From Tetraselmis striata (Eukaryota; Chlorophyta; Chlorodendrophyceae; Chlorodendrales; Chlorodendraceae): DNA of 64,000 nt. The notes under the pieces were generated by a model that saw nothing but the letters and a program-made list of their open reading frames with translations, was not told the DNA's origin and ran no database searches. How positions within the stretch are numbered: the first letter of the stretch is position 1; every line of letters begins with the position of its first letter. Shown piece by piece: positions 2,726 to 33,900 of this stretch. The position numbers and the translations under genes are program-made. The stretch is taken from assembly GCA_006384855.1 (NCBI GenBank), contig VCJN01001504.1, positions 1 to 64,000 on the forward strand. The letters are read 5' to 3'.

Positions 2726-5700
2726 AAAATTCAAATTGAAATTGATTACAACTGCTAGTCTGCTGCATCCACTGGCCCAGACTGAGTTGTTCTTAGGACC
2801 TGCTATCTCTGACCATGATAGGGAACACTAGGTGTAATTATAGCTCAAGCTAACGGCCTTCCTCTAGCAGTGTGCCCAAGCCCCTCCTCCTTCCAGTGGG
2901 CTGAAGCTAGTATAGCAGCGCCCCCATGCTGCCCCTACCTAAGTCAGGCTTGAGTGGGGGCTGCGGTGCCCTCCGACATGTAATTGGGTGAGTGTTGTCT
3001 TTGGTGGTTGTGGGAGTCAGCGGGGTGTGTTCTGTGTGTGTGGTGAGTTTCCGGGTGTGTATTGGTGTACGAGCTGCACCGGGCACATGGTTAGTGATGG
3101 TGGGCGGTGTTCGTGAGTCAGCTGGCTTGGTTGTTGCTGCTAATGCAGCGGCTCGCTCAACAGTTGTTGCGAGCTGCTGGACGGGTGGGCTGCACCATCG
3201 TCTGTTTCCCCCTCACTGTTTGAGCCGCGGGTGCCCGAGAGGCGTGGCTTGCTCCTGCTGCGGTTGCGGGTGGCGCCGTCCGAGCGGCTGCGGCCCCGGG
3301 GCTGCTTCTTCTTAAGTTTAGGTGTTGTGGCCGCCTTGCCTTTGCATGATGGGGTGGGCTGGCTGGGATGACGTTCCGGCTGGATGAAGAGGTGCTGTGG
3401 GTTGCGCAGCTGGTGTGATTCCTCTGCGAGGCTGGCCACGTTGGCGGCTATTGCGGGTTGGCTGGCAGGAGAGGACTGTGCAAGCGGCTTTGTGGCTGCG
3501 GTGGTGAGGTGGTAGAGTTCTGCCAAGTGTTATGTGGTGCCACTGGGTGTGCCCTCCCGGAATATCTAGTGCACTGTTGAGCGCTGGGGGGAGTCGAGGG
3601 ATATGTCAGCCAGACCCGGTGTCTCTGCTGTCGCACGCTAGTCGGTGTCCACCTCCATGGCGCCGTCGTTGTCCTCGTAGTTGAGCTCGAGTTCTTCCTC
3701 GTCGTCCGCTTGCGCTCTAGGCATGGCAGTTGCCGTTGAAGCTGTGGCTGTAGGCGCGGGGGATGGGGGGGGGGGCTGTGCCGGGGGCGCGCTCCGTTGC
3801 TGCTCCGCGTTGGTCGATGGCTGCCACTGCATCTGCAACCGCTCCTCGCCTCGGTGATATGTGCTCGAATCCAGGGGGGGGGGGGGGGGGGGGGGGGGGC
3901 GTCGCGGACCGGGGGTGCAGTCTGGGCTGCTGGGGTCGCTGGAGGTGGCTGTTCGCTCGGGCCTGCTGGTGGTGGGGCTGGCCATGTGTCGGCAGGGCGC
4001 CTCTCGGTTGGCGCCGGAGTCGGCTCGGTCTTGATCTTCCCGCACGCTGATGTTGTGATTGTCTTGCGCCACTGTTTTGTTCTGCCGGTGCCGCGGGTGT
4101 CGGCGATGATGTTGTGGTGGTGGGCGGTCAGCTGCAGGGTGAGGGTGTAGACTGGGCGTCCGGCGGCTCGTATGTAGGGCGAGGGACGTTGGGGCCGTCT
4201 TTCGGGCCTTCCTTCGCAGGCCTATCGCTGCGCGTCGGATCTTGTTGTGGCCGGTGTTGCCTCCTAGTTCTCCCACCTCCCGGACCGTCTGGCTGAAGGG
4301 GTGGATGATCAGCTCCGAGGGGTCGAACTCGGACTCCGTGAGGTAGATGACGATGGTGCGGATGCGTATCGCCCGCAGTAGCGCAACAAGGGAAGTAAGG
4401 GCCACTGCCAGGCGCAGGGTATCCGCGAACTCCTCGTCTTCTTGGCCGAGGGAGATGGCGCAGAGGTTGTCGTCTCCCACGCGCAGCAGTGTCGGCTCGG
4501 TGTGATGGTGGTACACCTCGACGTCGGCAGCTGTCATGGTGTCCGCCAGCCATTCGCGTGATGCAGCTCTGGAGGTGTGTTAGTTGATGCGCTGGCTGAT
4601 GGTAGCCGCTATGGCCTCCGGCAGCTGCTCCACCGTCGGCAGCTCGAGGTTGGCCAGAGGGGCGGTGCATATCGCTTTGGCCGTCAGTGCGCATCGGAAG
4701 AACTGTTTGGATAGCGCTGGGGGCAGTACTCCCGCGAGCGGGGTGGTTGGTTGGTCCTCGCGGTCCTCGTTGTGTTCTACTGTGGCTTTGATCACTACTC
4801 CTGCGGCTGGTCGCCAAACGGCATTACCGGTACTGCGTCGCGGCACACGTCATGGAGTAGGCGCGTCGCATCAGGATCGAGGAGTTCGAGGCGCACCGAG
4901 TCGGCTGAGCGGCGGGCTTTCCATACCTGGCGGACCTCTAGGAGGGCCAATATTGTGCGGGTCGGGGGGCAGATGACGGCGTCGTCTGCGTCTATGTCGG
5001 CCTCGTACTCAGCCAAGGCTCTCACTCCAGCGAGTGCCATGACGTCTGCTGTTGCCGCCGCCGGTTGGTCTGTCGCCGCTTCGCTCGGCTGGGGTTGATC
5101 GTATGCTGGGAGTAGGCCCTCCGCCAAGTACAGCCACATCTCGGCCTCAGTGCGGCCTCTGAACGAGGGGGGGCGAAGCCACACCTAGTGTACCGGTCGC
5201 TCGATGTCATAGGTCGAGGTACGGTGCTCCGAGTTGGCGAGTGGAGTAGCGGCGGCCATGGGGGTCGAGGATTGGTGTGCCCTCTCATGTCCATAGGGTA
5301 TGTAGAACGCTCGCTGTTGTTTCTCTGCGCGCCAGTCGTAGGATGACGGACCCGGTGGTGGTGGAGAGCTTGGTGCCACTCGGTCCAATGGGGTCGGCGG
5401 TGGCGGGCTTAGGGGGGCGGCGGGTCACCACTCTGACGTCTGCTGGTAGTATTTGAACTCCGATTTTGGGGCTGAGGGTGCGGATCGGGCTCGTCACAGT
5501 CCGGCCGCGCGACTCCTCGTCCGTGGCTTGGTGTTGGGCCACCTGATCGCCGAACAGTAGGGCCACATGGGTGGCATCGTCTGTGCCGGCGGGGAGGCTA
5601 GTTAGAAGTAGGTGAGATGGGCGTTGTAGCACGCGTATGTGGCGACGGGTTGCTGGTGTGAGTTGGGTGCCTGCGAAGTTTTTGCAGCTACGACCGTGCG

Positions 5701-17565: not shown

Positions 17566-18840
17566 ACCATGAAAATACCCGGCACTGACCACGAAAGGTC
17601 CGCCCTACCCGTTTGGACGTCGGCCCATTCGAGTAATGCGAGTTGGGGCAAGCCCCAACCCGCGGAGCAAAGCATTTCGGGAGTGCGATACATATGCAAC
17701 AAAGAAGGCAATGTGAGGGAGGGCCCGACGCCATGGCTGGAAAATTTTCCCATTCCCAGTAAAATCCGGGCGCCGTGAAGGGAGCATGGGGGGACCCCGC
17801 CCAAAATAAAGGCAGTTAAGTCCTCATGTGTTGACGCAATAACCTGACTACTAATACAATCCCTGAACTCCGGAACTAACAACCCAAAATTATGACGGTG
17901 ATATTCCCACCGCGGGCACTCCACCAACATATGTTCGATAGTCTCAGATTCACCTCCGCCACATGCAAGGCAGTGTTCCAAGGAACCGCTCATGCATGGC
18001 ATGAATCCGGGCCAATCGGCGGGCAGTGGGAAGTACTCGGGTGCGTAATTGTATCATAATGTGCAGTCCGGCCACAACCCCCACGGGGACATCCACACCG
18101 TACTGTGGCAACGGATTTGACGCATAAGACGCCTGGACATATATACCCCAGGTTTTTATTGCGTGCTAACGATGCCGACGATTCGTAACGCGCCCACACC
18201 GAGGCATGTACTAGTTTAGCGGCATCGCGCGCGGCCAATGACCACCACTCAAGTGGTCAAGGTGCGCCCCCTCAGCTAGCCCTACGTTCGCCCTAGCTAG
18301 TCGATCTAACCACCGCACAGTCCCCGACGTCTACGTGTTAGGGCGCGCCCGACTTTGCTGATCTACTAAATGGGTTATACATGTATTCAAGTCGGATAGA
18401 TGCTTTAAGGAACGCCCGAGCCCGTGCCGCAGCGGCCGTAACCTCTATGGGCGCAATATCCAACTCCCGCCCGCATCATCGGTGCAGTGGCCACCCCAGG
18501 GGAGTTCTTACCCACCCCAATGCGGCACAGCAAGCACTGATAGATTGAGTATGGTTTGTAATTTATCATTCGCGCCGCTAGTTCTATCCATGCCCCATAC
18601 TTCACACCCGTAACTTAAAACCGGCAGTACACATGCTTTAAAGACAGACACACGCACATTAATAGGAATTATGTCCCGTCCACCGACTACTACCGAATCA
18701 GCGCCTCAATGGCGCGCTTACCCGCCTTCTTAACCCGGTCGTCTACTGTGTGTTGCATACCTAAATCCGACTTAATGACCGTACCCAAATACCTATATTC
18801 ATTTACAACCGGTACCCGTTCCGCCCCAAGCTGCCATCGG
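17409..18840 (-). mobile_element. LINE, 3' part (interrupted by the 12-kb transposon)
   Basis: The minus-strand LINE continues here from 30,916. Coming out of the transposon, it reads WQLGAERVPVVNEYRYLGTV, followed by DLGMQHTVDDRVKKAGKRA, the conserved region after the reverse-transcriptase palm. Later comes a zinc-knuckle-like CLACGGGESETIEHMLVECP (about 17,940), typical of LINE C-termini. The frame ends at 17,409. Stops and frame changes lie between these blocks, so the copy is dead. The joined LINE, from about 33,950 to 17,409 without the transposon, is about 4.5 kb and belongs to the group with an apurinic-type endonuclease. Confidence 0.8.
18837..18840. repeat. Target-site duplication TCGG (left)
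   Basis: TCGG directly precedes the left terminal inverted repeat and is repeated at 30,916-30,919. Collapsing the two copies joins the LINE in frame across the site (EQAAR then WQLGAER). Confidence 0.85.
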
Positions 18841-18870
18841 AACAGTAATTTAACCTATTTTGCACCGTGG
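18841..18870 (+). repeat. Left terminal inverted repeat
   Basis: It starts AACAGTAATTTAACCTATTT and continues TGCACCGTGG. It matches the reverse complement of the right end at about 25 of 30 positions. Further in, TAGGGTTTG is also shared with the right end. Confidence 0.85.
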
Positions 18871-19037
18871 AATTCATTTTGCACCGTAGGGTTTGTTTAT
18901 ACCCTAGTTCCCGGGTCTACTATCAGTACTTAAGACTCACTGGTGATGTAGCTTGGGTTTGTAGACCTTGGGTGCAGTGCAACATTCATCAGCATGCAGG
19001 CCAGCCGCGACGCATATCCAATGTTGGTTTTGGAGCA

Positions 19038-19055
19038 TTTTGTCCAAAATGCGAC
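19038..19055. repeat. Subterminal palindrome GCATTTTG/CAAAATGC
   Basis: GCATTTTG, two bases, then CAAAATGC: an 18-base inverted repeat with a TTTTGTCC-like core, about 200 bp inside the left end. It is a candidate transposase-binding or hairpin site. That role is inference. Confidence 0.6.
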
Positions 19056-19133
19056 AAGATGAGGGGATGAAATCAATATTTATTATGATGATTACATCCA
19101 GCGGCTAGCTAGCCACAAGACGTTGCTAATAGT

Positions 19134-22100
19134 TTATTCGTTGAGCATCCCCAACTCAAGCAAGTCCTTCTTCGTGGCTGCGTTAAACTTGACGACTCCG
19201 CCGGGTTTGCGTTGCGCTGGGGTGGTTGACATGACGTGGCCGCAGTTGTTTCGTGGCTGGCTGATTTGCCACCCAGTTTGCGCATATGTCTTCACGACTT
19301 GGACGCTTTTACCGTACCACTTCTTTCTGACCATGGTGCCGTCCTCGTTGAACACCTCTCGACTTCCCGACGCGTCGTGGATGGCCTTCGCGTACGATAG
19401 GGGGACGGCTTCAACAAGCTTCCAAGGAAGCGTCAGGCACTTCTCCCAGCTTGTGTCAACTGGCTTCTTCCCTCCTTTTGTCTGCGCGTACAACCATAGG
19501 GGCATGAGGGGTTTGCCCTTTGCATCGGCATGGAAGGGCTCGTATACGGCCACGGTCAACGTGTCTTCGGTAGTCTCGCGCGACTTCACAAGCCCGATGA
19601 CGAATCTCGACTCCCAATCACCAAGAGTTTCAGGACACTTGTCTTCCTCATGCACCTAACGATGACCAAGACCGCGAGCTATGTTAGTCCCGAGCGAGAC
19701 GCCACGCCATTTTTGTCCCAGCTGGGACAAAATAACAAGCAAGGTAGAAGAACCAAATTGTTTTGTCCCGTAAAGGACAAAAATGACAAACAATGGGACT
19801 CACATCGGAGACGTCGATGACAACGAGGTTCGAGCCCTTTGCATCGCTGGGCGATGTGTTGTCATGAAGCCTCTCCTTGGCGCCGGCGTGAACTCCCCGG
19901 AAGGCGCTGTCATCTTGAAGCACTTGAGCACGAACCTCGGCTTCAACGCGAGCGGCTTCGTCATTGTTGAGGTCTGCGTTGGTAGCCATCGTGTGACGTG
20001 CCTCAGCAGGCGCGGTCTGCCCGTGCTCGCGCAAGAAATCGTCAACTTCCTCTTTCCGTTGCGGCCAGAACCCGGAGAAAGCTGCCGAAGGAGCAGTTTG
20101 CATCTCATCCAAGTCGTCGAGCAGATTCTTCCAGCTCTCGCGCTCGACTGGGGAGAAGTGCCACTGGACCGCCAGGTCCGTGATGTACGACCTGACCTTC
20201 TTGAAATCATCCAAGTACCTCTGGACCTTCACCGCGTCGGGCTTCTTTTTGTCGCAGAGAGCGTACAAAAGGGGCCGGCCCGCACGAATCTCGGGCGTCC
20301 CAGTTGGCGCGCTCTTCAAGATCTGCACGGGCTCAGAAAGCGGTGTGTTGGACCACAAGGCGGTGCGCAACGAGCCGCCAGACGCGGCGTCGTCGTCACG
20401 GGTGAACTCGAATTTGTGCGGCTTACTGATGTCCTGAATGTGGTCTTGGAAATGGGGCCTTAACCACTCAGAGAAGTCGAGGGAGAATGAGAGCTCAGCA
20501 ATCTCCGGAGTGGGCGAGAATGCCTTTGCCACCAAGTCAAGAAAGGCCTCGATTGTGTAGGCGGAGCTGCGAGATAGCGCAAGACTGATGCGGCTGAAGA
20601 TCTGGTCAACCCGTTCGTGAGTGTGCCCGACAGGCAAGAAGACCAAATGAATGACGTCGCAGATGCCGATAGACACAAGCCAATTGCAGAGGGCCGCCAC
20701 GTTCCTATTCTTGTTCTCCCTGACGGTGTTGTCCATCTGGATTCTGATGTACGGAATCTTTCTACCACGGTGTTAAATTAATTTCCTGCATCGCAGACCA
20801 GATTTCATCAGTCCATGGCTACCGGACAACCACGGCGAACCTATCGGGAGGCTAACGAGCTCACCTTCATGATCGTGATCCATATCAGAAAGCACGTCGT
20901 GGACGAATCGTGGGGGATGGTGTTGGTGTAGTAGTAGATGTCGTCCGGGCGGTATCCGTCGTACTTCACACAGGTGAGGTGGTACTTGAGGAGCATGTCG
21001 GGCTTCACAGTCTTGGGGATGCGAATCCAGTGAGGCAGCAGGGTCTTCGCGGAGTCCATGCTATCAATTTCGAAGAAGAAGAAGTTTCCATGGCCAAGGC
21101 GCGACTGGAAGACGGCGTTGTTCAGATCCCTTCGTTCCTGGCGCACTCTCTCGAGGTGTACCTTCTGCTCAGCTCTGACCTGACGCCTCACCAGCTGCTG
21201 ATGTTGACGGTGCACTAGACGTTCCTCTGGCGTCATGTCCTTTGTGCAAATCTCGCGAGCTTGGTCTCTGAGTGCTTTGCCCGCCGCGCGCGCATATGGG
21301 ACAGTGGCTGAATCGCTTCACCTTCGGCGTGGTGACATCCGGGAAGTCTTCCTTCCCGGCGGAAAGTGTCGAACGATGCGAGCTTCACTTCGCTCTCGGT
21401 AGCCAAATCTACAAAGGGGCAGGGGCATGATAGGTCGGTATACAAATAAGGTCTCATACTGCGAGGCAGAAAAGTTCGGTCTAAAGTGGGTCGAAATAAT
21501 TATATCGGTAGTTGGTGAATAATTCTGTAATCAGCATGGCGAAACAATCCGTCATCAGTGTGACGAAACGGTATGTCAGTACTGGGACAACACCGTCTCT
21601 CAGCAGTGGGACAAGACGTTCTCTCTGCAGGGGGACGATATCGGCTACTTATGTGGGACAAATACTTTTGTGGTCGGTGGGACGAAACGGTATGCCATGA
21701 GCGGCGCGAAACGTTCTGTCATCAGTGGGACGAAATCGGTCGGGCGTCGGTAGGACTAAACGTTCTGGCGATAGCGGGACGAAACGGTTTGTCATCAGCG
21801 GGACGAAACGGTCTGTCATCAGCGGGACAACACGGCATGTCATCAGTGGGACGAAACGGTCTGTCATCAGTGGGACAAAACGGTCTGTCATCAGCGGGAC
21901 AAAACGATTTGTCATCAGCGGGACGAAACGGTTTGTCATCAGTGGGACGAAACGGTTTCTCATCAGCGGGACGAAACGGTTTGTCATCAGTGGGACGAAA
22001 CGGTTTGTCATCAGCGGGACAAAAACGGTATGTAATTAGCGGGACGAAACGGTCTGTCACCAGTGGGACAAAACGGTTTGTCATCAGCGGGACAAAACGG

Positions 22101-23005
22101 TTTGTCCTCAGTGGGACGAAACGGTTTGTCGTCAGCGGGACGAAACGGTATGTCATCAGTGGGACAAAATGGGCCTCACCACGGAGAATGGCGTTGTCGT
22201 CCTCGGCCCACGACTTGTAGTAGTAGTAGACGCAAATCTTGGTCATCCAGGGAGGTAGGTGCTTCTTGAAGGTCTCGCTGTTTCCGTCATGAAAAGGCAT
22301 GATCTCGACGTGACCGAGGTCATCCGAGAAGAAGTGCTCGAGAAACATGCGCACATGCTCCCTCGGTCCGGTCTGTCTGCTCTCGTATTGCTTGCGCTGC
22401 CTGATGTACGTGGGTTCGTTATCCACCACCGACCGCTGGATCACGAGACGTCTGTGTTTCGAGACCTGATGCAAGACCTCCCACGCACGCCCACACGTGT
22501 AGATGGGGCCGCGATGATCGAAAGATCGCAAGTAGCCACCGTGATCGAACATGTAATCGAACTTGTCGGATGCCGACTCGTAGCCACCCCTGAGAACCTG
22601 AGCGAGCCGGTCAAAGGAGCGGTTCTGATTGCCAGAGTATACGGTCAACGCACGGTCCAACACGGCATCAACGAGGGCCTCTCCGCACTGTGTGTATAGC
22701 TTGTGCACGCACTTGCGCGAACAGCATGGCGACTGCTCGCTAGCCTCCTTGGCGAGCATGAGGCGGATACAATCGCGAGAGGTGCGCTTGCTGATCAGAG
22801 ACGAGACCTTGCCATTATCGCTTTCGGCGACCTCATCGGAGCCCTTGCCCCACGTGTACTTCCTTTTCTCAGGCTCCTTACGATCACTCGCACGCGCGTC
22901 GCAATCACACGAGTACCCGCTGCGGCACGAACACAGCGGTAATGTAACTGTAGTGTCCGACTCGCCGGATCTTGGAGAAGAGGCCATGCTTTCGACCACC
23001 GCCAT
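19134..23005 (-). CDS. DUF7869-like RNase H-fold transposase
   Basis: Four exons: 22,180-23,005; 20,865-21,408; 19,804-20,757; 19,134-19,655. Exon 1 has a cysteine-rich N-terminus (CSCRSGYSCDCDARAS), then CCSRKCVHKLYTQ and a HTH-like segment ending KHRRLVIQRSV. Exon 2 carries FSHCPICARGG and, later, FFFEIDSMDSAKTLLPHW, the likely first catalytic Asp region. Exon 3 opens with IPYIRIQMDNTVRENKNRN, which holds the second Asp, then VFLPVGHTHERVDQIFSRIS, the family's hallmark. This order matches DUF7869 proteins, which I take to be transposases. The last exon is charged and unassigned. Intron 1 (771 bases) holds a 24-bp repeat array. Exon 2 reads in three frames along its first 150 bases, so frameshifts are likely. 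The start is either ATG 23,005 or 22,987. Confidence 0.75.
19711..19782. repeat. Perfect and interrupted TTTTGTCC palindromes
   Basis: At 19,711-19,732 TTTTGTCCCAG is followed directly by its exact reverse complement, a 22-base perfect palindrome. At 19,761-19,782 TTTTGTCC and GGACAAAA flank a six-base loop. Both lie in the last intron of the transposase gene. Related but weaker forms occur at 30,676-30,692 and 30,757-30,775 near the right end. Confidence 0.8.
21515..22170 (+). repeat. 24-bp minisatellite array 1
   Basis: About 27 units of a 24-bp repeat that begins GGGACGAAACGG and ends TCATCAG plus one variable base pair. The first 200 bp are degenerate. It lies wholly in intron 1 of the minus-strand transposase gene. 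Because 24 is a multiple of three, all frames stay open on both strands, giving spurious repetitive proteins. Confidence 0.9.
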
Positions 23006-23550
23006 GCAGCGCGGGGCGAGTGGGTGGGGGGGGGGGGGGGGGGTGAAGGACTGTGATCTGTGGTGAGGAAGAGTGACGGCCGATGACCGTTCTCGGACGG
23101 GCCGTTGACCGGGGTGCATAATATCCAGCTACGGGTCAAAATAATTGATGACTCAAATACCGTGTTATTTCGTGCTTCTTTCGTATGTCGGAAATAGTTC
23201 TATACTAGTAAGTACACCCGAATCCAATCCAAGGAATATATCATCCCATGAAGGAATATTATTGCCACGCCACTGTACTCTCGTACCGTTATGACTCTCG
23301 AGTAGGGAATATTTTATCTTCCAGTAATAGTAATATATAGTCGCAGTAGTTAGCCCTGTATATTCGTCGCGGTGCAAAATACATGAACCTGATGACGACG
23401 ACGAGGTACACTGTAGTGTGCGCACGCGCGCCGTTGGTCCAGCAGGGGTCAGAGCGGCGGCAGACAGAAACCACGTCATTTCCACCTCTCCCTCACCGCT
23501 ACCCACCAAGAAACCCGCTCATCTACCGCGTCAACCTACCTACCGCCAGA
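23006..23550. promoter_or_regulatory. Shared divergent promoter region of the transposon
   Basis: The transposase gene leaves leftwards from about 23,005 and the methyltransferase-like gene rightwards from 23,551, so the 545 bp between their start codons must hold both promoters. An 18-base G run lies at 23,026-23,043, close to the transposase start. I recognise no specific element. Confidence 0.55.
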
Positions 23551-26500
23551 ATGGCGCCGAAGAAGAACGAGCCTGCCAAGGACAAGGAAGACAAGGACGA
23601 CGCCACCCCAGGTGAGTTGCGCGCGCGTACAGTAGCTGCCTGCCTGCTCGACGCGTGATACGGCCAGATATAGCGAGTTCAGTTAGGGTTCCCTGTAGAA
23701 GCGGTGTAATCTAGGACCGCTCGAGGTGTAGGCAGACGAGTGGGAATAGAAACCCAAACGAGACGAGCGGCATCAGGGTCCTGCAGGGTAGTATTACGTC
23801 CCGTCGAGGCAGCTGCGGCAAGCAGTAAGGATGCTAATTGGTGGTGGGAGGGGGTGGGGGTGAAGAGCGGCCAGGGGGAACCTCTGCCTGTACTCCGCCG
23901 TAAGGAGTGGTTTAATATTAGTGTGAAGCACAGTACTTAAAGACATAACATTATTAAACCGCAGTACATAATGTATTGAAAATAGTTTTGTCATCAGTGG
24001 GACGAAACGGTTTGTCATCAGCGGGACGAAACGTTCTGTCATCAGTGGGACGAAACGGTTTGTCATCAGTGGGACGAAACGGTTTGTCATCAGTGGGACG
24101 AAACGGTTTGTCATCAGCGGGACGAAATGGTTTGTCATCAGCGGGACGAAACGGTCTGTCATCAGTGGGACGAAACGGTTTGTCATCAGCGGGACGAAAC
24201 GTTCTGTCATCAGTGGGACGAAACGGTTTGTCATCAGTGGGACGAAACGGTTTGTCATCAGTGGGACGAAACGGTTTGTGAGCAGTGGGACGAAACGGTT
24301 TGTCATCAGCGGGACGAAAGGGTTTGTCGTCAGCGGGACGAAACGTTCTTTCATCAGTGGGACGAAACGTTCTGTCATCAGTGGGACGAAACGGTCTGTC
24401 ATCAGTGGGACGAAACGGTTTGTCATTAGTGGGACGAAACGTTCGGTCATCAGTGGGACGAAACGGTATGTCATCAGTGGGACGAAACGGTCTGTCATCA
24501 GTGGGACGAAACGGTTTGTCATCAGTGGGACGAAACGGTATGTCATCAGTAGGACGAAACGTTCTGTCATCCGCGGGACGAAACGGTCTGACAGGATATA
24601 ATATTTATAGGCCGAAGGTCCAAGCGGACATCAAAACCTACCGAGAAAGCAAAAGAATTCGATGCGCTCGGAGCGCTAGTCGGGAGAAAACACAAGGCGT
24701 CATCTTCTGTGCCAGAGCAGCCGGCGGCGAAGAAGAGCCGTGCAGCCTCAGCTTCTGCAGCTAGAGCCGGCGCTGAGGCATCAGGTAACCCCTGGAAACC
24801 GAGCCTTTTAGGAGGTAGGGTGCCGGCTTACGGCACGCACTCGCAAGGAGAAAGATCGGCCGCCTTGCTTTTGAGGGCCCGAATCAAGAGCGGTCAGGTC
24901 CTCTCAGATGCTCAAATGCAGACAGCGCGAAGGCTAATGGATTACGAAAAGCTCATGCAAGCTTACTATCAATCAGGTCCTTGCCTCTCCAATCATATGA
25001 TTTTTGTGAGTGCACTGTGTCATATTGACATTGTTTGAAATCATGTGCGTTGACAGGTTCGAAAGGACGCGCACATGAGCCAGTAGCGACTCAAGCTTCA
25101 AAGGAATCCAAGGGAAAAGAGAAGGTTTCAGAGACGATTGTGACTCCAGGTAATTGTGACTGAAAGTATCAATCCCTGCCTTCTCACTCCCTTCGATTAC
25201 TTTCTCGTCAATGAGTTATCTGACGTTCCAACAGGTCGTAAATTGTCGGAGGCAACCGCGTCGGAAGCAGCTGGTAAATCGGGATCCCCAGGTAAGAAAA
25301 AATACGCTTGGCTTTGATGGTGTATGGCGATACCGTTCAGTAGTTAATCGTGACGCCCACTGCAGGTGTGTTGAGTACTCTCTACTCATTCTTTACAGGT
25401 TCCCCGAATCAAGCCTCTTCTTTGTCTAAAGGCCCATCTCAAGTACCGGAAACATAGCCGGAGCCGGAGCCCGAGCCCACTCGGCTTGACCCGGAGCCAG
25501 AGGCCGAGCTCGAGACTCCAGCGCCGACTACCGGGCAAGCGTCTGGTTCTGGAGCCTCTGGTTCTCGAGCCCCTATTGCCGAGGCTCCGAGAAGGGTTCC
25601 TGAATTCCTCAGTATGTGCACGGATGAAGAGGTCTTCGGCACAGAGAAAGAACAGCGGCAACGGGCGGCAGAGAAGCGTAAGCAAGCTCTCGACATCACC
25701 GGCACTTCCGGACCCGAGAGGAAGACAAAGCTGATGACGGTCGCCTCTTACGACGACTTCTTTGACGAGAGGGACGGGTCCCAAGAAGATGACTCCTACA
25801 GCGACTTTACCTCAAGGAGCTGGACTATCCACTGGTTCAAGAACGCAAGTGCTGAGGTCGAGATCTATTTGTACATCGAATTGCACAAGGCGAGCCTGCT
25901 GACTGGCAAGGACTTTTTCGATGATCCGAAGGGGCCACTTCTCGCATGTATCGGAAAGATCAAGGACGTCGAGCTGGACTCGGCCGGAAACTACGAGGTG
26001 AGTAAAGCTTATATGATGTCTGAATTCGTGTCAATGTCGTGTTTCAATAAGTATTAATATTCTTGTGCTTGTTACCGCAGATATCTCTTGAACCTTATCG
26101 CTTGACAGTGCACAAGGAGTTCAGGATCGATGTCAGCTTTGAGAGGTTGCTACTCCACGCGATCCAACCGCCACTCTCCTTCCAACCGCGGTTCCAGTCT
26201 TACTACGCATGGACTTTGGTCGAGCGCAATGTGATGGCGCAGGCGCTGACAGCTTTCGCGTCTGGTCAGATTGACATCGATGACTTGGCCAACATTGACA
26301 AGGATTTTAAGAACGCGCTTCCATACGTCAACACGTTGGCCGTCCCGCCGGCCTTGAATGGCTTCAACAACACCGGTGCCGTCGACTGGATCTCTTACGG
26401 CCACCTCAGAGTCGAGATTGTTGATCCAGAGGTGAAGACATCTCACGGTGGCGACATCAACACGTTATACGCCGACAGAGTCAACCTCGTCGTCGACAAG

Positions 26501-29500
26501 GATACGGGGCTGCCTCACATTTTCAGCTTCATATCCGATAAGTTCGTCGCTCCGCCGCCGGAATTTGAATTCCGTTCCCCAAAGCTGCAAGACTGCAATA
26601 TGGTGGCGCAAAGCTACAAGGTAAAAGCCTATCGCGACATGTTGTACCTATCCGGATCAGATATGTGTAGTTACATGTAAATCAATACACAATGCAACTT
26701 ACTGACATCCATTTCTTGCATTTGTTATTCAGAGGAATCCTTCCCTGTCCGCCGAGAATTTCTCGGTGTCCTTTCCAGTAGTCCACAAGAACCGCGATTT
26801 TTTCTCCGAAGAGTACGAGCCCCTCGCTCTGACCATGGCCAACTTCAAGGAGCTAGTCGCAGCACACGAAGGCGGGGAGAACCCGGGGTTGGCGGATTCA
26901 AGTTCCTACAAGCCAGAGATCGACGTCATCATCGATTTTCTTAGCGCCTACGGCGCGCGTCAAGCCAACATCGACGGCAGCCACAGACGGGAGGCGAAGC
27001 GCATGGTGAAAGAAAACTACCCGGAAATCTACAAAGCCAACAAAGGCATCCACCTCACGTCGGCTAAGATGTACATCGGCCTCTCGCCGGAAGTCTGCCG
27101 CTACATGTCTATGAAGCTCAACGAGGCGGGTCACACCGTCGTGGGAGACACGTCGATGCACAAACTCCTGGTGAGTGACCCATTTTCCAAGATTACTATT
27201 TAGCAGAGCGTGGCAGCAAATAGGCGTAAAGTGTGACAAAAGTCGTTCTGTCGTTAGCGGGTTAAAAATATGACAGCGGGACGAAACGGTCTGTCATCAG
27301 CGGGACAAAACGGTTTGTCCTCAGTGGGACGAAACGGTTTGTCATCAGCGGGACGAAACGGTCTGTCATCAGTGGGACAAAACGTTCTGTCATCAGTGGG
27401 ACGAAACGTTCTGTCATCAATGGGACGAAACGGTCTGTCATCAGTGGGACGAAACGGTATGTCATCAGTGGGACGAAACGGTATGTCATCAGTGGGACGA
27501 AACGGTCTGTCATCAGTGGGACGAAACGGTCTGTCATCAGTGGGACGAAACGGTATGTCATCAGTGGGACGAAACGGTATGTCATCAGTGGGACGAAACG
27601 GTCTGTCATCAGCGGGACGAAACGTTCTGTCATCAGCGGGACGAAACGGTCTGTCATCAGTGGGACGAAACGGTTTGTCATCAGTGGGACGAAACGGTTT
27701 GTCATCAGTGGGACGAAACGGTTTGTCATCAGTGGGACGAAACGTTCTGTCATCAGCGGGACGAAACGAAACGGTCTGTCATCAGCGGGACGAAACGGTT
27801 TGTCATCGAGGTACAAGCGTTCGGAATTTTGAAATCGGTGCAATTGTTTCTGCAGAACCTTCGCAGATGTTTCGAGAGCTGGTATGCAAAACAGGATGCA
27901 AATCGCCCCGGCTTTAGGGCACTTCCGCAAATCAGGGTAGTGAAGGAGTTCAAGAAGTCTGAAGTTCTTCAAGTTGAACTTGAGAAGATCGGCATCAAAG
28001 ATGAGAAGAGCGGCGAGTTCTCAAATTTGATTGACCTCTGCTCGCGCCCACAACGGTGAGCTGCGTACATGATGAAAATTTATCGTGTTGTTAATGCTCC
28101 TAGATTCTGACAAATGATTTGCGCAGTGTTTTTGAGCCCCTTGAGCAGATTTCTGAAGCCTACCGGCATGTGGACCTCGGGGTTCGAGGATGGGACGAAG
28201 CCAGAACCAAACTCGGAGACATGTTTGTGTACTACCAGCAAGAACTCGATAGAGTCAAGCGCCTCAATAGCGGCAGGCAACTCACCCAGAAGGAAGTGAG
28301 CAAGGTTTACGAAGCAATTCGGAAGCCTATCAATACAATCCTCGATAACAAGAAGTACGGCTTCGGGAAAGACAGAGCTCACTTCCGAGTCGCCCTCATG
28401 GAGGTAAGTTGTGACCGACCCCAGTGTCTTAATCATATGGAATACTATCATTGATTCCTTTCTCCGTACTGAAGTTTGTTTTTCGACCCAGGATGTCGGC
28501 TTTGGACCCCATGCGCCCTGGCTAGACGAGCCGTCTCTTGCCAAGCAGAGCGACAGCGCGGATCTCCCTGTGGGCCAGATGTACCTGGTGGTTGGACTGC
28601 TCATCCAAGGCGAGCACAGTGTGACCCCGAGCCTCTACGAGCTGGTGGATGACATTAAGCACGCCGGCGACAATGGCCCCATGGCTGTTACGCACACCAA
28701 CGCGGAGTGGCTCGCGATGATTGAGACCTGGAGGTTTCGCGATCTCTTGCGTCGAGCAAGCATCAAGCTCATGAATGTCATTGACACGGCCAAGGGCAGG
28801 GAGACAATCCAACTGCTGACGCCGGACGAACCGGCCAGGAATTGGGGGAAATATCTCTCGGACCACATCATCGATTGGGATGTGCAAGACAAAGTGTCGG
28901 ATGAGCAAGCGGCCGCTCGCCTTGACGCCATCACCAAGTTCCGAGCCAATGTTGATGACCTCGGCCCAACAGGCTTCCCCAGAAAGTTCCAGGATTTGTT
29001 CAAAGGTGCTCATCGCTCCGGTCCGTTGATGGTCTTGCTGACCCCTCCTGCCAGATGGGGGGATATGAAATCCGCCGATTGTCTCACACCACTACCGGTT
29101 CGAGAGCATATCGCGGCCACCAACACCACCATCAGGAGTGAGGCGTATCGCATCAAGAATCAGATGCCGGACTTAGTCATCTCCTTCTTCACAGAGTTTG
29201 CTCTTCTGGCATGTGCGCCGGAGCTTATCGCGGTTTCCGTTCCGAATGTTTATAATGAGCTGTGGATATCGATGAAGGTAACTAAGATCTTGTGCAACCA
29301 CAAATGCTCTTCTGAATTTTCGTTGTGAGCTATTAACCTGAATCTGTTTTCTGACACACACAGGCCGAGGAACTTCCGGTGATGCCCAAGGGAGAAGGGG
29401 TCGAGAAGGATGACAAGGTGTGGTTGAACACGGAGCTTTGCAAGACTTGCATTGTGGAGGGGAACTTCAAGGCTCCCGCGACAAAACAATTCGTCGCGGA

Positions 29501-30645
29501 CGCCATGTCGGCAGTTCGTGCCAAAAAGGCAACAGTCTTCATTGCCGACGCGCTTTTCGGAGCTGGTTCGCACACATGGGACTCGAAGGATGCTGCGTGG
29601 GGTACGGACGACTTCAACGACGTGTTTGCTTTCGCGAGGCAAGACAACCCCCACAACCCCGGTGCGTACTAGATGACTGTGCTTTCATTTATCTCATTCC
29701 CGATTTACCCCCGCGCAGGCAGTTGAATATCCATACTGGATCTTCTGACGTCCACACTGCTCTCGATGGGTGCCATTTCTTCATTCACCTCTCGGACCAG
29801 CAACTTGGATCCGCAATCACAGCCGTTCAAAAACAAGCTGAGGACCTCATCTATCACGTCCTGACTTGGGCCAAGGATTGCGGGATGAAGATGGGCAGCT
29901 CTCTGCGTCACGACGCTGAGTACTACCTCTACGTCAGGAAGCCCCCGCCAAGCATCATAACTGACAACATCCGTTTCGATGATCCCCGAAGGTGAGATTT
30001 GATCCGTGGAAAATAGCCGGCTTGTATTTATTTACTCGCTAAGCCGGTTGTGCCTTTCCAGATTCTCTACATCCATCATATTGGGTCACTTCAAAGACAG
30101 TTCGAAATTGAAGGACGAGAACAGACATACGGTGAACAAGTACCAAAAGCCTATCGCTCTCTTCGCCAAGCACCTTAAGATGGCGGCAACAGACGGGACA
30201 ACAATCGTCGACGTCACAACCGGAACCGGGACAACCGCGGTGCGTGAGGGGTGCAACCCGGGTGGGTGTCTTAATGGATCAGCATAAAAAAACTAACGCC
30301 TTGTGCGGTTTGCCACGCCTTTTCCAGGTCGCTGCGGCCTTTTCCGTGTGATGGGACCATATGGATCATACCTACTCGTTCACACACAAGAACTTGAAGA
30401 TTATCCTCATTGACAACCAGAAGACGCAAATCGCTGGGATGAAGTCCAGGATGACCTCATGGTTCAAAGAGAAGCCATGGGACGAGACTCAACAACTGCG
30501 TCCAAGTGACTTCGAGAAGTGGCCGGGTCTACCCCATCCAATGACCGTGTCAGAGGAGTTCTCAGAGCGTCTTGCGGCAGCGAAGAAGAGGCAAGAGGCG
30601 GCAGAGCGCCGAGGGGATTATGTGATCGAAGATGATGATATGTAG
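23551..30645 (+). CDS. Large protein with degenerate permuted adenine-methyltransferase-like C-terminus
   Basis: Fourteen exons keep phase throughout: 23,551-23,611; 24,611-24,784; 25,057-25,149; 25,235-25,291; 25,399-25,997; 26,081-26,620; 26,733-27,170; 27,856-28,055; 28,127-28,403; 28,492-29,277; 29,364-29,665; 29,719-29,991; 30,062-30,239; 30,328-30,645. They total 1,432 codons. The first exons are lysine-rich and low complexity, all joined in phase 1. The middle (about residues 200-1,100) is globular and unrecognised. The end resembles permuted N6-adenine methyltransferases: VFIADALFGAGSHTWD...DDFND sits where TDPPYG...WD is usual, then KYQKPIALFAKHLKMAATDG, then VDVTTGTGTTAVAA in the place of DPFxGSGTT, then NLKIILIDNQ. 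DALF replaces DPPY, so catalysis is doubtful. One in-frame TAG is at 25,455-25,457. A TGA at 30,349-30,351 falls inside a possible 45-base GT-AG intron (30,346-30,390). Confidence 0.72.
23984..24592 (+). repeat. 24-bp minisatellite array 2
   Basis: About 25 units of the same 24-bp repeat in the same orientation as arrays 1 and 3, inside intron 1 of the methyltransferase-like gene. Variation clusters at two places: GGTTTG/GGTCTG/GTTCTG/GGTATG, and CAGTG/CAGCG. Confidence 0.92.
27277..27808 (+). repeat. 24-bp minisatellite array 3
   Basis: About 22 units of the same repeat inside the 685-base intron between exons 7 and 8 of the methyltransferase-like gene. It has the same orientation and the same variant classes as the other two arrays. 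Confidence 0.92.
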
Positions 30646-30885
30646 TACAATTCCGCAAAATTAGCCGCTCATATGTTTTGTCCTAGTTTGGACAGAGTTT
30701 CAGCCCCCGATGGCGCAAACTTCTTGTAACCATCCCGTTTCCTTAAATCTTTTGATTTGTCCCTGCTTGGACGGAATTGGTTTCCCCGACTTGGCACAAA
30801 ATGAACCAACCGGCATTCATATTAGCTTGCAATCCCACTGCTGCCCCCAAACCCTAATTTAGACCTAACCACAATGCACCGCGTG

Positions 30886-30915
30886 CCTCGGGGCAAAATA
30901 GGTTGCATTACTGCT
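30886..30915 (-). repeat. Right terminal inverted repeat
   Basis: Read on the minus strand it starts AGCAGTAATGCAACCTATTT and continues TGCCCCGAGG, matching the left end with about five differences in 30 bases. TTAGGGTTTG follows further in. Confidence 0.85.
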
Positions 30916-33900
30916 TCGGGCAGCTTGTTCGCGTAACGCGGTCTCGTCGGAATATCGGCCTAATGCCATCACCCCGCACTTAAGTACCCCAAACCCCATG
31001 GAATGGTCCTCCGCCCACTGCGACACTGAAGTGGGCGAACATGGCATGCATGTTGTCGAAACAGCCCGTGATACCAACAGCGTCGTCCGCGTATAACTGA
31101 CCCGGCACCCTTAGTGGTTGTTTTGCCGCTAATGTCGGTGCACCCTGGTACATCACACCCTAGATGTTCTACCCCATCGAATATATCGTTAAAAAAATAT
31201 GTTAAATAGGATGGGAGAAGCGGGGCATCCCTGTCGGAGGCCACGCTCTATGGGTATGGGGTCTGATAGTGTTCCCGGGGCCACCCCTGTCTTGACCCGT
31301 ACCATACTATCCATGTATAAAGTTTTAATGAAGGTAAGCATATGACCCGTGACTCCTATGGCTTGTAGTTTTAGGAATAAAAACTCGTGAGGTACGGTGT
31401 CGTATGCCTTCCTAAAGTCAATAAAACCCGCGTACGTGGGTAGACCTCCCGCTTGCTTGGCGACGAGCCGCGATATCGAGCAAGCTGACGACTAACTTCC
31501 ATGGGGCCCTCCTCATTCCGCATGAAACCCGCTTGCCAACGGCGGATTATCCCTTTAGCTTGGCAGATGTCTTGCAAGCGTTGGGCAATGACGGTCATAA
31601 GGAGTTTCATAGCCGCACCCATAGTCGAAATTCCCCTATAATTGTCCATAACCGCCGTGTCGCCTTTGTTGGGCACCGATACTATGGCCGAGCTACGTCA
31701 CTGCTGGGGGGTATAGTTCTTAGTCCATACCCCGTTAATTAAGGCCAGCAATGTCTTGCCAAAAAGGCTATTTGGGGCGTACGTATATCGCCAATTTTAA
31801 AGCCCCCGCAGTAATCCCATCATGCCCGTGGGCCTTATTATTTTTTTAACGCCTAAGAGCCTTGACTAGTTCCTCCCATGTTATATGCCCATTATCCCCG
31901 TTTAGTGCGGGGGCAATGGGTGGCGATGTACCGTGGCGGTGTTACCACGCCGCACGGTATATCGCAACCCGTTGTGCTAGGTGGTGGGGGTCACGCAGCA
32001 GCTCCCGATTGTGCGGCGCCAATCATGCATTGATTTCGTCCGGCTCGGTATGAAGTACCCCCGATACCGGATCGCGTATTGATTGGTCGTTCGCGCCCTC
32101 GAATGAGCCCTGCCCCTTACGGAGAGAGCGCGCCCACTTCCAGAACTCATGTCTCCCACCACCCTTCTTGAAATCCTGAACCGCTTTCTGCACGGCCCGC
32201 TCCCTCTGGCGGCGGCGATTATTACGTACTAGTGTCCGGACCCTATGCCGTGCAACAGCATAATCTGCCGACGCTAGAGTGGCATCCCGAGGGCCCCTAG
32301 TCCCCCGGCACGCCATAAAGGCCATGCGCCGACGAGTAATCGCACCTAGGATAGACCGTTGCAGCGGCGGCCCTAGGCCACGACGCTTGGGCTTGGTAAC
32401 AACCCCTACCTCACGCGCCGCCGACCATATTGCCTGGTTAAAGTGGTCGGCGCCGGTGTAGTCTAGGGACCCCCCCCCCCCCCCCCTTCCCCCTCCCGAG
32501 GGCCCGCCGTCTACAGGTGGGTCATCTAGAAGGGTGAGCACCGCGAACGGATTAGTGGTGACAAAATCGTGGAACGGCTTCGGCCATTCAGAGGGAGAGT
32601 CACCGTGGGCAGGTTTGGGAATGGACCTTGCAGACATGCGTTCATGCATGGGACGAGGTGGAGAGGTATCCTCACGGATGGCGCCCATGGGGAAACAAGA
32701 CAGGACAGGGAAGTGATCGAAGGTGTCCCAAGAGTAGTCCACCCATGCCGAGGGCGAGACGAGGGGGGGGAGGGCCCATAGTGGGAGGCCATACGATGAA
32801 GTGGTCGAGAACGCGGCAGCTGCCCCTACGACAAGTATCGCGTTCTCGCGCCGATGCATCCCGCGGCCACATGGGCTTACCGCCGGGAAGGCACCGCCAA
32901 CGCCTGAGTAGAGCCGTCAACTCCCTTTCATCCATGTTCCACCCCCCCCCCCCCACCCCCACCACCACCACGATCATATCCCTCGGATAACTCGCACAAA
33001 GCCGTACCAACTCTTTGCGCATGCGGTCCCGATACGGTTCCCTCTGTGAGCCGGTGTGCAAATAGGCCGAGATAAATATGGTGGCCGCGGAGTCACTGCA
33101 ACCTCCCCCCACCCGGACACATGTCCAACGTGGGTGGGGCGCGCCGACTGCCCGCGCCCGGTACGGCGACTGGACTAACACACAACACCCACGTTCCGAT
33201 GCAACGCGGTCACCGAACGACTAGTAGTAAGAGTACCCATTAAAACGCACTCGCATATCGGTCACCCTGATCGTGGTCTCCTGAACGAGCAAAACATCTA
33301 CATTTCACTCGATCAGCAGCGCGCCAACATCCTCCTTAGAAGACAACCCATTCACATTAAGCGTCGCAACGCACAGGTGGGCGGGCATGGAAGGGAAGGG
33401 AAAGGGAAAGGGGAGGGCGGGCGGCGTGGCGATCCCAGTACGAGCGGTGTTCTCGCAAGTATCACCCCCACCGGCATGCAAAACGTTGTAAACGCTCGCG
33501 GATATGCCCTTGGGTATAATACACATCAAAGCGCACTAGCCCATCCCGCTGCAACACACGAACGATCTTCGGAATGGCCGAGGGCCGGCTATTAAACGCC
33601 CGATCGACGCGGCTCCAATAGGCATGTAGTGGCGACGGGTCCCCCCAACAACAAACACGACGCATGGACGCCCTAGCGCCCCCGGCCAGGTGCCCAACCG
33701 TCCAAGGGAGAACCCCCGTCACTATGACGGCTGCACCCGGTGGCGCGCGGTTGCCCATATCGGGCCAACTCTACCGGAGCTACGGTTATGTTATACCAGG
33801 TGGGAAAACTCGGTAATGCGGTAGGGTCATGGCAAACATTCCCTAGCGCGAGGTATAAGGGTTACGGATCCCCGAGTCGCCGCATCAGGGCCGACATCGG

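Follow-up and report, generated by a model that had tools for sequence, protein, structure and literature searches.

Transposons of the Sola group generate 4-bp target duplications, and their acidic triad has been reported as DDD. Among described elements, the 21.5-kb Sola1-1_Ec32 of Ectocarpus carries, opposite its transposase gene, an accessory gene with ParB-like and N4/N6 DNA methyltransferase domains, and the account of it points to green and red algal cases and proposes that proteins of this kind bind to the transposon encoding them and modify it (PMC12477816). Sola2 elements are likewise flanked by 4-bp duplications (PMC3627910). Kyakuja-Dileera-Zisupton (KDZ) transposons, with duplications of 7-8 bp, are described as carrying TET/JBP DNA-modifying genes (PMC12730594). 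Here, we analysed a 64,000-nucleotide stretch of the green alga Tetraselmis striata (contig VCJN01001504.1, positions 1 to 64,000; hereafter the window), which holds a DNA transposon of about 12.1 kb inserted in a long interspersed nuclear element (LINE). We read this transposon, with a probability of roughly 0.7, as a decayed copy of a recently active algal cut-and-paste family that combines a DUF7869 transposase, a ParB-like and methyltransferase-like accessory protein, and arrays of candidate binding sites.

Boundaries, copies and gene pairing

The element and its flanks lie at the following positions of the window:

18837-18840: left 4-bp target duplication, TCGG (an exact 4-bp duplication is found in 16 of 22 copies)
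18841-30915: the element, inserted in the LINE
18841-18870, + strand: left terminal inverted repeat, AACAGTAATTTAACCTATTTTGCACCGTGG (terminus search, copy comparison)
30886-30915, - strand: right terminal inverted repeat (terminus search, copy comparison)
30916-30919: right 4-bp target duplication, TCGG

The 30-bp inverted ends are imperfect, with 25 of 30 bases agreeing when counted from the sequence, and the termini read AACA...TGTT. At up to three mismatches, the 23-base terminus has two inverted matches in the window, a result reached in none of 100 shuffles. When the element and one TCGG are removed, the reverse-transcriptase frame of the LINE is open across the junction (REQAAR/WQLGAERVPVV), and the joined 120-bp empty site is matched over positions 1-120 at 98-99% identity in all 40 host-genome places scored, from 605 first-look candidates. 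The shuffles and the empty sites together rule out chance ends or a misread boundary. The first-pass annotation of this DNA had placed the ends at 18841 and 30915, had seen the LINE frame restored on removal, and had proposed a search for empty LINE sites; the ends and the frame hold, and the empty sites exist.

We searched the host assembly (224 Mb, 2,903 contigs) and found the terminal motif at 658 places at up to two mismatches (339 + 319), compared with 3 (1 + 2) for a reversed control; the family numbers well over a hundred copies. Copies were sampled from 100 listed terminal-motif places as inverted pairs on one contig, giving a set of 22 that consists of 11 copies taken whole, the ends of 10 more, and the window copy. 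Nine of the 11 are full-length (12.0-12.6 kb) and two are derivatives (7.3-7.5 kb). Of the 22 copies, 16 have a target duplication of exactly 4 bp (binomial P 2e-34 at a chance rate of 1/256), none has a longer one, no other length is in excess, and the 16 exact duplications have no strong consensus. The family thus combines the inverted ends and fixed-length duplication of cut-and-paste DDE/DDD transposons. Exact 4-bp duplications also flank C264 (10.5-38.5 kb, 28 kb long) and C345 (64-88 kb, 24 kb long), whose extra length presumably reflects nested insertions. The closeness of the copies and their clean duplications indicate that the family has been recently active. A 7.5-kb derivative on contig C48 (259790-267800), in which 18 array units are reversed, is a rearranged copy.

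The element carries two genes back to back: gene 1, encoding the DUF7869 protein, and gene 2, encoding the ParB-like/methyltransferase-like protein. Among the 150 DUF7869 and 129 gene-2 matches listed in the genome, at least 79 pairs lie 5.1-12.4 kb apart on opposite strands in this arrangement, none has the other opposite-strand order, and two same-strand neighbours stand within 13 kb of each other. Proteins identical or almost identical to the products of the two genes bear the Joint Genome Institute (JGI) label Tetstr1, which we read as Tetraselmis striata. JGI gene models numbered consecutively (such as 428262/428263, 466057/466058 and 456709/456710) show the pairing too, if consecutive numbers mean neighbouring genes, as we infer. 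The divergent multi-exon pair reported at first pass, here of four and 14 exons, recurs in the genome, and the search with the termini that had been suggested there recovered further copies with the same ends and 4-bp duplications. None of the outcomes named in advance as fatal (copies with different ends, no second copy with both genes, ends alike by chance) came about.

The two element proteins

Both genes are broken in the window copy, gene 1 by loss of frame in exon 2 and gene 2 by two in-frame stops. Their parts are:

22180-22987, - strand: gene 1 exon 1 (splice model)
20865-21408, - strand: gene 1 exon 2, with HCPIC and the first conserved D (EIDSMD); frame lost in the window copy
19804-20781, - strand: gene 1 exon 3, with PF25273 and the second and third conserved D (QMDN, GHTHERVDQ)
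19134-19655, - strand: gene 1 exon 4 (splice model; JGI model P0010 is of equal length, 950 amino acids)
23551-30645, + strand: gene 2, 14 exons (splice model)
23551-23611, 24611-24976, 25057-25149, 25235-25291, 25399-25997, 26081-26620 and 26733-27170, + strand: gene 2 exons 1-7
27856-28055, 28127-28403, 28492-29277, 29364-29665, 29719-29991, 30062-30239 and 30328-30645, + strand: gene 2 exons 8-14
26967-27005, + strand: ParB-like motif NIDGSHRREAKRM
29538-29582, + strand: motif IV region FIADALFGAGSHTWD, where DPPY would be canonical
30203-30238, + strand: motif I, binding S-adenosylmethionine (SAM), IVDVTTGTGTTA

We spliced 12 copies with fixed anchors, a procedure that can itself fail in a diverged copy. 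Joined from its four exons, gene 1 has no stop in C154 and C58 (950 amino acids each) or in C238 (949 amino acids), and is broken in frame or partly deleted in the window and the remaining spliced copies. JGI model P0010, which represents 29 member sequences, shows 97% identity in the region searched. The DUF7869 hallmarks recognised at first pass correspond to a match to PF25273 (DUF7869) in the middle of the protein (E=3.4e-37 and 128.3 bits in the window exon, cut-off 26; E=1.7e-43 in P0010). All 150 genome matches scored, from 548 candidates, lie above the cut-off, and 14 control genomes gave none. An alignment-based search returned 403 relatives, with PF25273 in all 120 listed. In an alignment of 100 rows picked from 190 relatives, 98 have each of D385, D468 and D510, and the remaining two are gapped at the first D; the first two D are 80-84 residues apart in 98 of 98 and the last two 41 apart in 94, and H504, T505, H506 and Q511 are invariant. 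When nine copies were compared with C154, codon positions 1, 2 and 3 of gene 1 differed at 45, 55 and 136 of about 8,280 sites each (0.5, 0.7 and 1.6%), and introns at 2.7%; the copies share ancestry, so these events are not independent. On these features the DUF7869 protein is very probably the transposase, a presumed RNase-H-type enzyme whose D-82-D-41-D triad would serve to cut both ends and join them to target strands 4 bp apart. JGI model P0046 (Tetstr1 model 459753) joins DUF7869 to the methyltransferase end, either as an artefact of annotation or through a deletion that fused the two genes.

Gene 2 reads without a stop for 1,523 amino acids in C154 and C54 and for 1,567 in C24, and is broken or deleted in the other spliced copies. 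The permuted methyltransferase-like end claimed for it at first pass stands, if weakly in the window, and the size of about 1,400 residues does not. Its N-terminal part contains a PE-rich stretch. Around residue 679, all 10 full-length copies contain NIDGSHRREAKRM (core IDGSHRREA), which fits the pattern of ParB/sulfiredoxin domains; this putative ParB assignment is made at the level of the motif, with a parallel in the literature. At the C-terminus, motif IV precedes motif I. The match to PF01555 falls below the cut-off of 26.7 bits in the window (21.8 bits, E=2e-4) and slightly under it in the gene-2 models (24.8-25.7 bits); genome frames extending across an intron with stops score about 25-29 bits, and a second family introduced below about 38. 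A related gene model, P0074, matches PHROG 67 (E=4.8e-7). Motif I is within three changes in 10 of 10 full-length copies (VDVTAGTGTTA or a near variant), with its leading D in nine and TYVT in C455. Motif IV reads ADALF in all 12 gene models and in nine of the 10 full-length copies, and is lost in C238.

These motifs bear on whether the gene-2 product works as an N6-adenine or N4-cytosine methyltransferase on the DNA of its own element, as the retained motif I and the similarity to PF01555 and PHROG 67 would allow. Active enzymes of this kind have a motif IV of the form (D/N/S)PP(Y/F/W), which gene 2 does not show: the consistent DALF, and the DSNY of the second family, have no Pro-Pro. Because of this departure, catalytic activity is doubtful, and we regard an active enzyme as unlikely. 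A stretch reading LLTPPARWG (gene 2 residue 1087 on) was rejected as an alternative motif IV: it precedes motif I by about 320 residues, compared with about 180 for DALF, it is missing from nine of 12 JGI models, and only the DALF site lies within the alignment with the second family. The gene-2 protein is, with moderate confidence, better viewed as an accessory factor whose ParB-like part would bind the element's own DNA and whose methyltransferase-like domain appears to have retained SAM binding.

Neither protein has a significant match among solved structures (best E 0.92 and 1.2). Two patterns searched in viral contigs gave 48 stretches for DUF7869 and two gave 109 for gene 2, none of them confirmed, and gene 2 has no match in phages; a viral or phage origin of the element finds no support in these searches. 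Motif strings of the genes had no match in the open-licence literature. Contigs C2280, C935, C1010, C185 and C2009 of the assembly are apparent bacterial contaminants with ParA/ParB, phage-like and bacterial-type adenine methyltransferase genes, and C1597 and C803 carry methyltransferases with a viral or polinton-like look.

Intronic arrays and a second family

Introns of both genes contain tandem arrays of a 24-bp unit, which, like the ParB-like motif, go beyond what the first-pass annotation had described:

21540-22169, + strand: array 1, gene 1 intron 1 (Tandem Repeats Finder)
23987-24587, + strand: array 2, gene 2 intron 1 (Tandem Repeats Finder)
27274-27807, + strand: array 3, gene 2 intron 7, directly behind the exon with the ParB-like motif (Tandem Repeats Finder)
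19038-19782, + strand: left subterminal cluster of TTTTGTCC / GGACAAAA motifs, whose core is that of the array unit
19711-19732: 22-bp palindrome within the left cluster, exact in 6 of 10 full-length copies
30676-30683, + strand: right subterminal TTTTGTCC motif

All three arrays are present in 10 of 10 full-length copies in constant orientation, with 4-42 units each. The unit pattern has 7,472 exact occurrences in the genome and none for a reversed control, and its best-kept stretch, over 633 units, is GGGAC-R-AAA. Outside the arrays, TTTTGTCC and GGACAAAA occur five to seven times per copy, compared with 0.3 expected, always within 1 kb of the left end or 0.35 kb of the right end. As this motif was chosen after looking, we also tested, in three copies and against 300 dinucleotide shuffles each, every 8-letter word with three or more occurrences in the arrays. 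The count in the left 1 kb was reached by no shuffle in any of the three copies, and that in the right 400 bp by 7, 1 and 0 of 300, while the middle of the element showed no enrichment (159, 193 and 85 of 300). A search of the open-licence literature for repeats or introns in such elements gave nothing whose title and abstract looked relevant.

Another methyltransferase gene is present in multiple copies, at no fewer than 17 listed places of the genome (profile span 54-196 of 198), and identifies a second family. On C2248, this gene is oriented away from a pair of exons belonging to a second DUF7869 family (about 87% identical to residues 1-178 of P0055). Its product shares 29% identity with that of gene 2 (E=2.6e-17, C2248 stretch) and has ADSNY as motif IV; between the family-1 and family-2 transposases, identity is 31% across 547 aligned positions. 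The ParB-like motif has a counterpart in VIVGNHRRAASKL (VGNHRRAAS). The methyltransferase-side end is AACATTGRTTCAAAATAAATG, with AACAGT... in some copies, so that AACA is common to both families; this end motif occurs at 138 genome places and nowhere in a reversed control, and at 15 of the 17 places it follows the methyltransferase at a distance of 1.3-1.5 kb, the two misses being a contig end and a place without a listed end. In three copies, arrays of an unrelated 25-bp unit precede the methyltransferase by 1.7, about 4, about 8 and 10.3-11 kb (located by sequence on C2248, and on C401 and C144 among the first 100 of 999 places listed for the unit pattern). The array in the second transposase gene is placed ahead of TCREAW, a point at which family 1 lacks an intron; arrays have therefore been kept while intron positions differ.

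It is quite possible, although we lean slightly towards a role, that the arrays are neutral minisatellites that expand by slippage without any role in the element. Introns tolerate repeats, the number of units is evidently free to vary, and array words are not enriched at the one family-2 end seen. Set against this are the retention of three arrays in a fixed orientation in every full-length copy, the words common to both subterminal regions of family 1, and the recurrence in family 2 of arrays with a near-equal period, an unrelated sequence and corresponding distances, one of them in the transposase gene at a place of its own. Under the reading we prefer, the GGGACRAAA-core sites near both ends and in the three arrays may, somewhat tentatively, be binding sites of the gene-2 protein or of the transposase. 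The gene-2 protein might then mark or gather copies, by methylation if its motif IV works and by non-catalytic binding otherwise, and such marking or gathering could help transposition or shield the element from silencing. A bolder proposal, which we consider unlikely as a whole, is that these elements form an algal transposon class with its own marking system, in which a ParB-like, methyltransferase-derived protein would bind family-specific 24-25-bp arrays in introns of both genes (in family 1 also near the ends), somewhat in the manner of plasmid parS/iteron sites. Each family would recognise only its own copies, protein and unit would diverge together, and the methyltransferase fold may have shifted from catalysis to binding.

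Several observations weigh against the interpretation of the element as a functional pairing of transposase, accessory protein and binding sites. Six of the 22 copies (C58, C226, C455, C488, C200 and C436) have no exact duplication, those of C455 and C488 differing at one base each, and since copies share descent, counts over copies are not independent. Both genes are open only in C154, one of 12 spliced copies. Among the matches listed, 71 of 150 for DUF7869 and 50 of 129 for gene 2 have no partner, no doubt partly through contig ends, deletions and incomplete listing. The Pfam model ParB_N (PF02195) has four matches in the genome, none inside the element, and motif IV has no Pro-Pro in either family. 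Constraint on gene 2 is present but weak: its codon positions 1, 2 and 3 differ by 3.0, 2.2 and 4.0% in the same nine-copy comparison, faster than gene 1, which is under clearer purifying selection, and its third positions exceed introns. Finally, array words show no enrichment over the final 600 or 1,000 bp of the second family (right 600 bp: 1 versus a mean of 1.4). The elevated third positions of gene 2 look as if the gene had a separate history or as if subfamilies had mixed.

Elsewhere in the window, a telomere-like tract of 5.3 copies of GGGTTAG lies inside the contig at 56971-57007, and G homopolymer tracts of 25-36 bases lie at 3874, 34110, 36682, 42727, 49038 and 63676, with a shorter one near 23030, directly upstream of gene 1.

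Relation to described superfamilies

Our findings give DUF7869, a Pfam domain of unknown function, a setting in complete multi-copy transposons with defined ends, a target duplication and a conserved D-D-D triad. They also show two diverged families, within a single algal genome, that each combine a transposase with a ParB-like, methyltransferase-like partner. The intronic arrays make self-recognition accessible to direct biochemical test, and at least one copy (C154) has both genes open.

Two described groups can be set aside. KDZ elements resemble this one in pairing a transposase with a DNA-modification gene, but their 7-8-bp duplications (PMC12730594) differ from the 4 bp found here and rule out membership; no KDZ profile is among the Pfam matches of gene 1. 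EnSpm/CACTA is likewise ruled out by its CAC..GTG ends and 3-bp duplication (PMC12730594), compared with AACA..TGTT and 4 bp here. At the level of the accessory protein, gene 2 shares with class-beta N6/N4 methyltransferases (PF01555, CcrM-like) the order of motif IV before motif I and a retained SAM-binding motif, and differs from them in having DALF or DSNY in place of DPPY.

One candidate placement is a separate superfamily, as yet unnamed, that is defined by DUF7869 and took up an algal ParB-methyltransferase gene independently. The AACA...TGTT termini would fit this, and no transposon name is attached to any of 72 DUF7869 relatives or of 120 listed among 403; the open-licence literature searched contains no mention of DUF7869, of PF25273 or of the matching InterPro number. 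A name missing from sources without Repbase and Dfam says little, and we treat this placement as possible, with some reserve.

The element may instead be a plain member of Sola1, with DUF7869 as the Sola1 transposase and gene 2 as the accessory gene of Sola1-1_Ec32, in which case little would be new beyond the host and the arrays. Short inverted ends and a 4-bp duplication are also features of Sola, the duplication being that expected of Sola1, and the D-D-D triad here parallels the DDD of that group. That DUF7869 is the Sola1 transposase is quite possible, and the placement as a whole has in our view a chance somewhat short of even. Sola2 supplies the published case of 4-bp duplications; those are AT-rich (AWWT; PMC3627910), a preference not seen in the 16 exact duplications here. 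Moreover, accessory genes cross superfamilies, as fungal TET/JBP genes show (PMC12730594); because they do so, a shared accessory gene is no proof of a shared transposase.

The comparison with Sola1-1_Ec32 itself is the closest we can draw. Both are large DNA transposons with a ParB-methyltransferase accessory gene on the strand opposite the transposase, but the Ectocarpus element is 21.5 kb long compared with 12.1 kb here, and its accessory protein has 1,104 amino acids compared with 1,523; section 5 of its account makes no mention of intronic arrays (PMC12477816). The first-pass annotation had known of no described superfamily with this gene pair, terminus and 4-bp duplication, which holds in so far as the combination is partly new and fails in that the accessory gene is known from Sola1-1_Ec32 (PMC12477816) and the duplication is a Sola trait. 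The gene pairing thus has a precedent. What is new is that DUF7869 is assigned to a bounded, complete element, that motif IV is altered, that a second family exists, and that each family has arrays of its own, in family 1 common to introns and ends.

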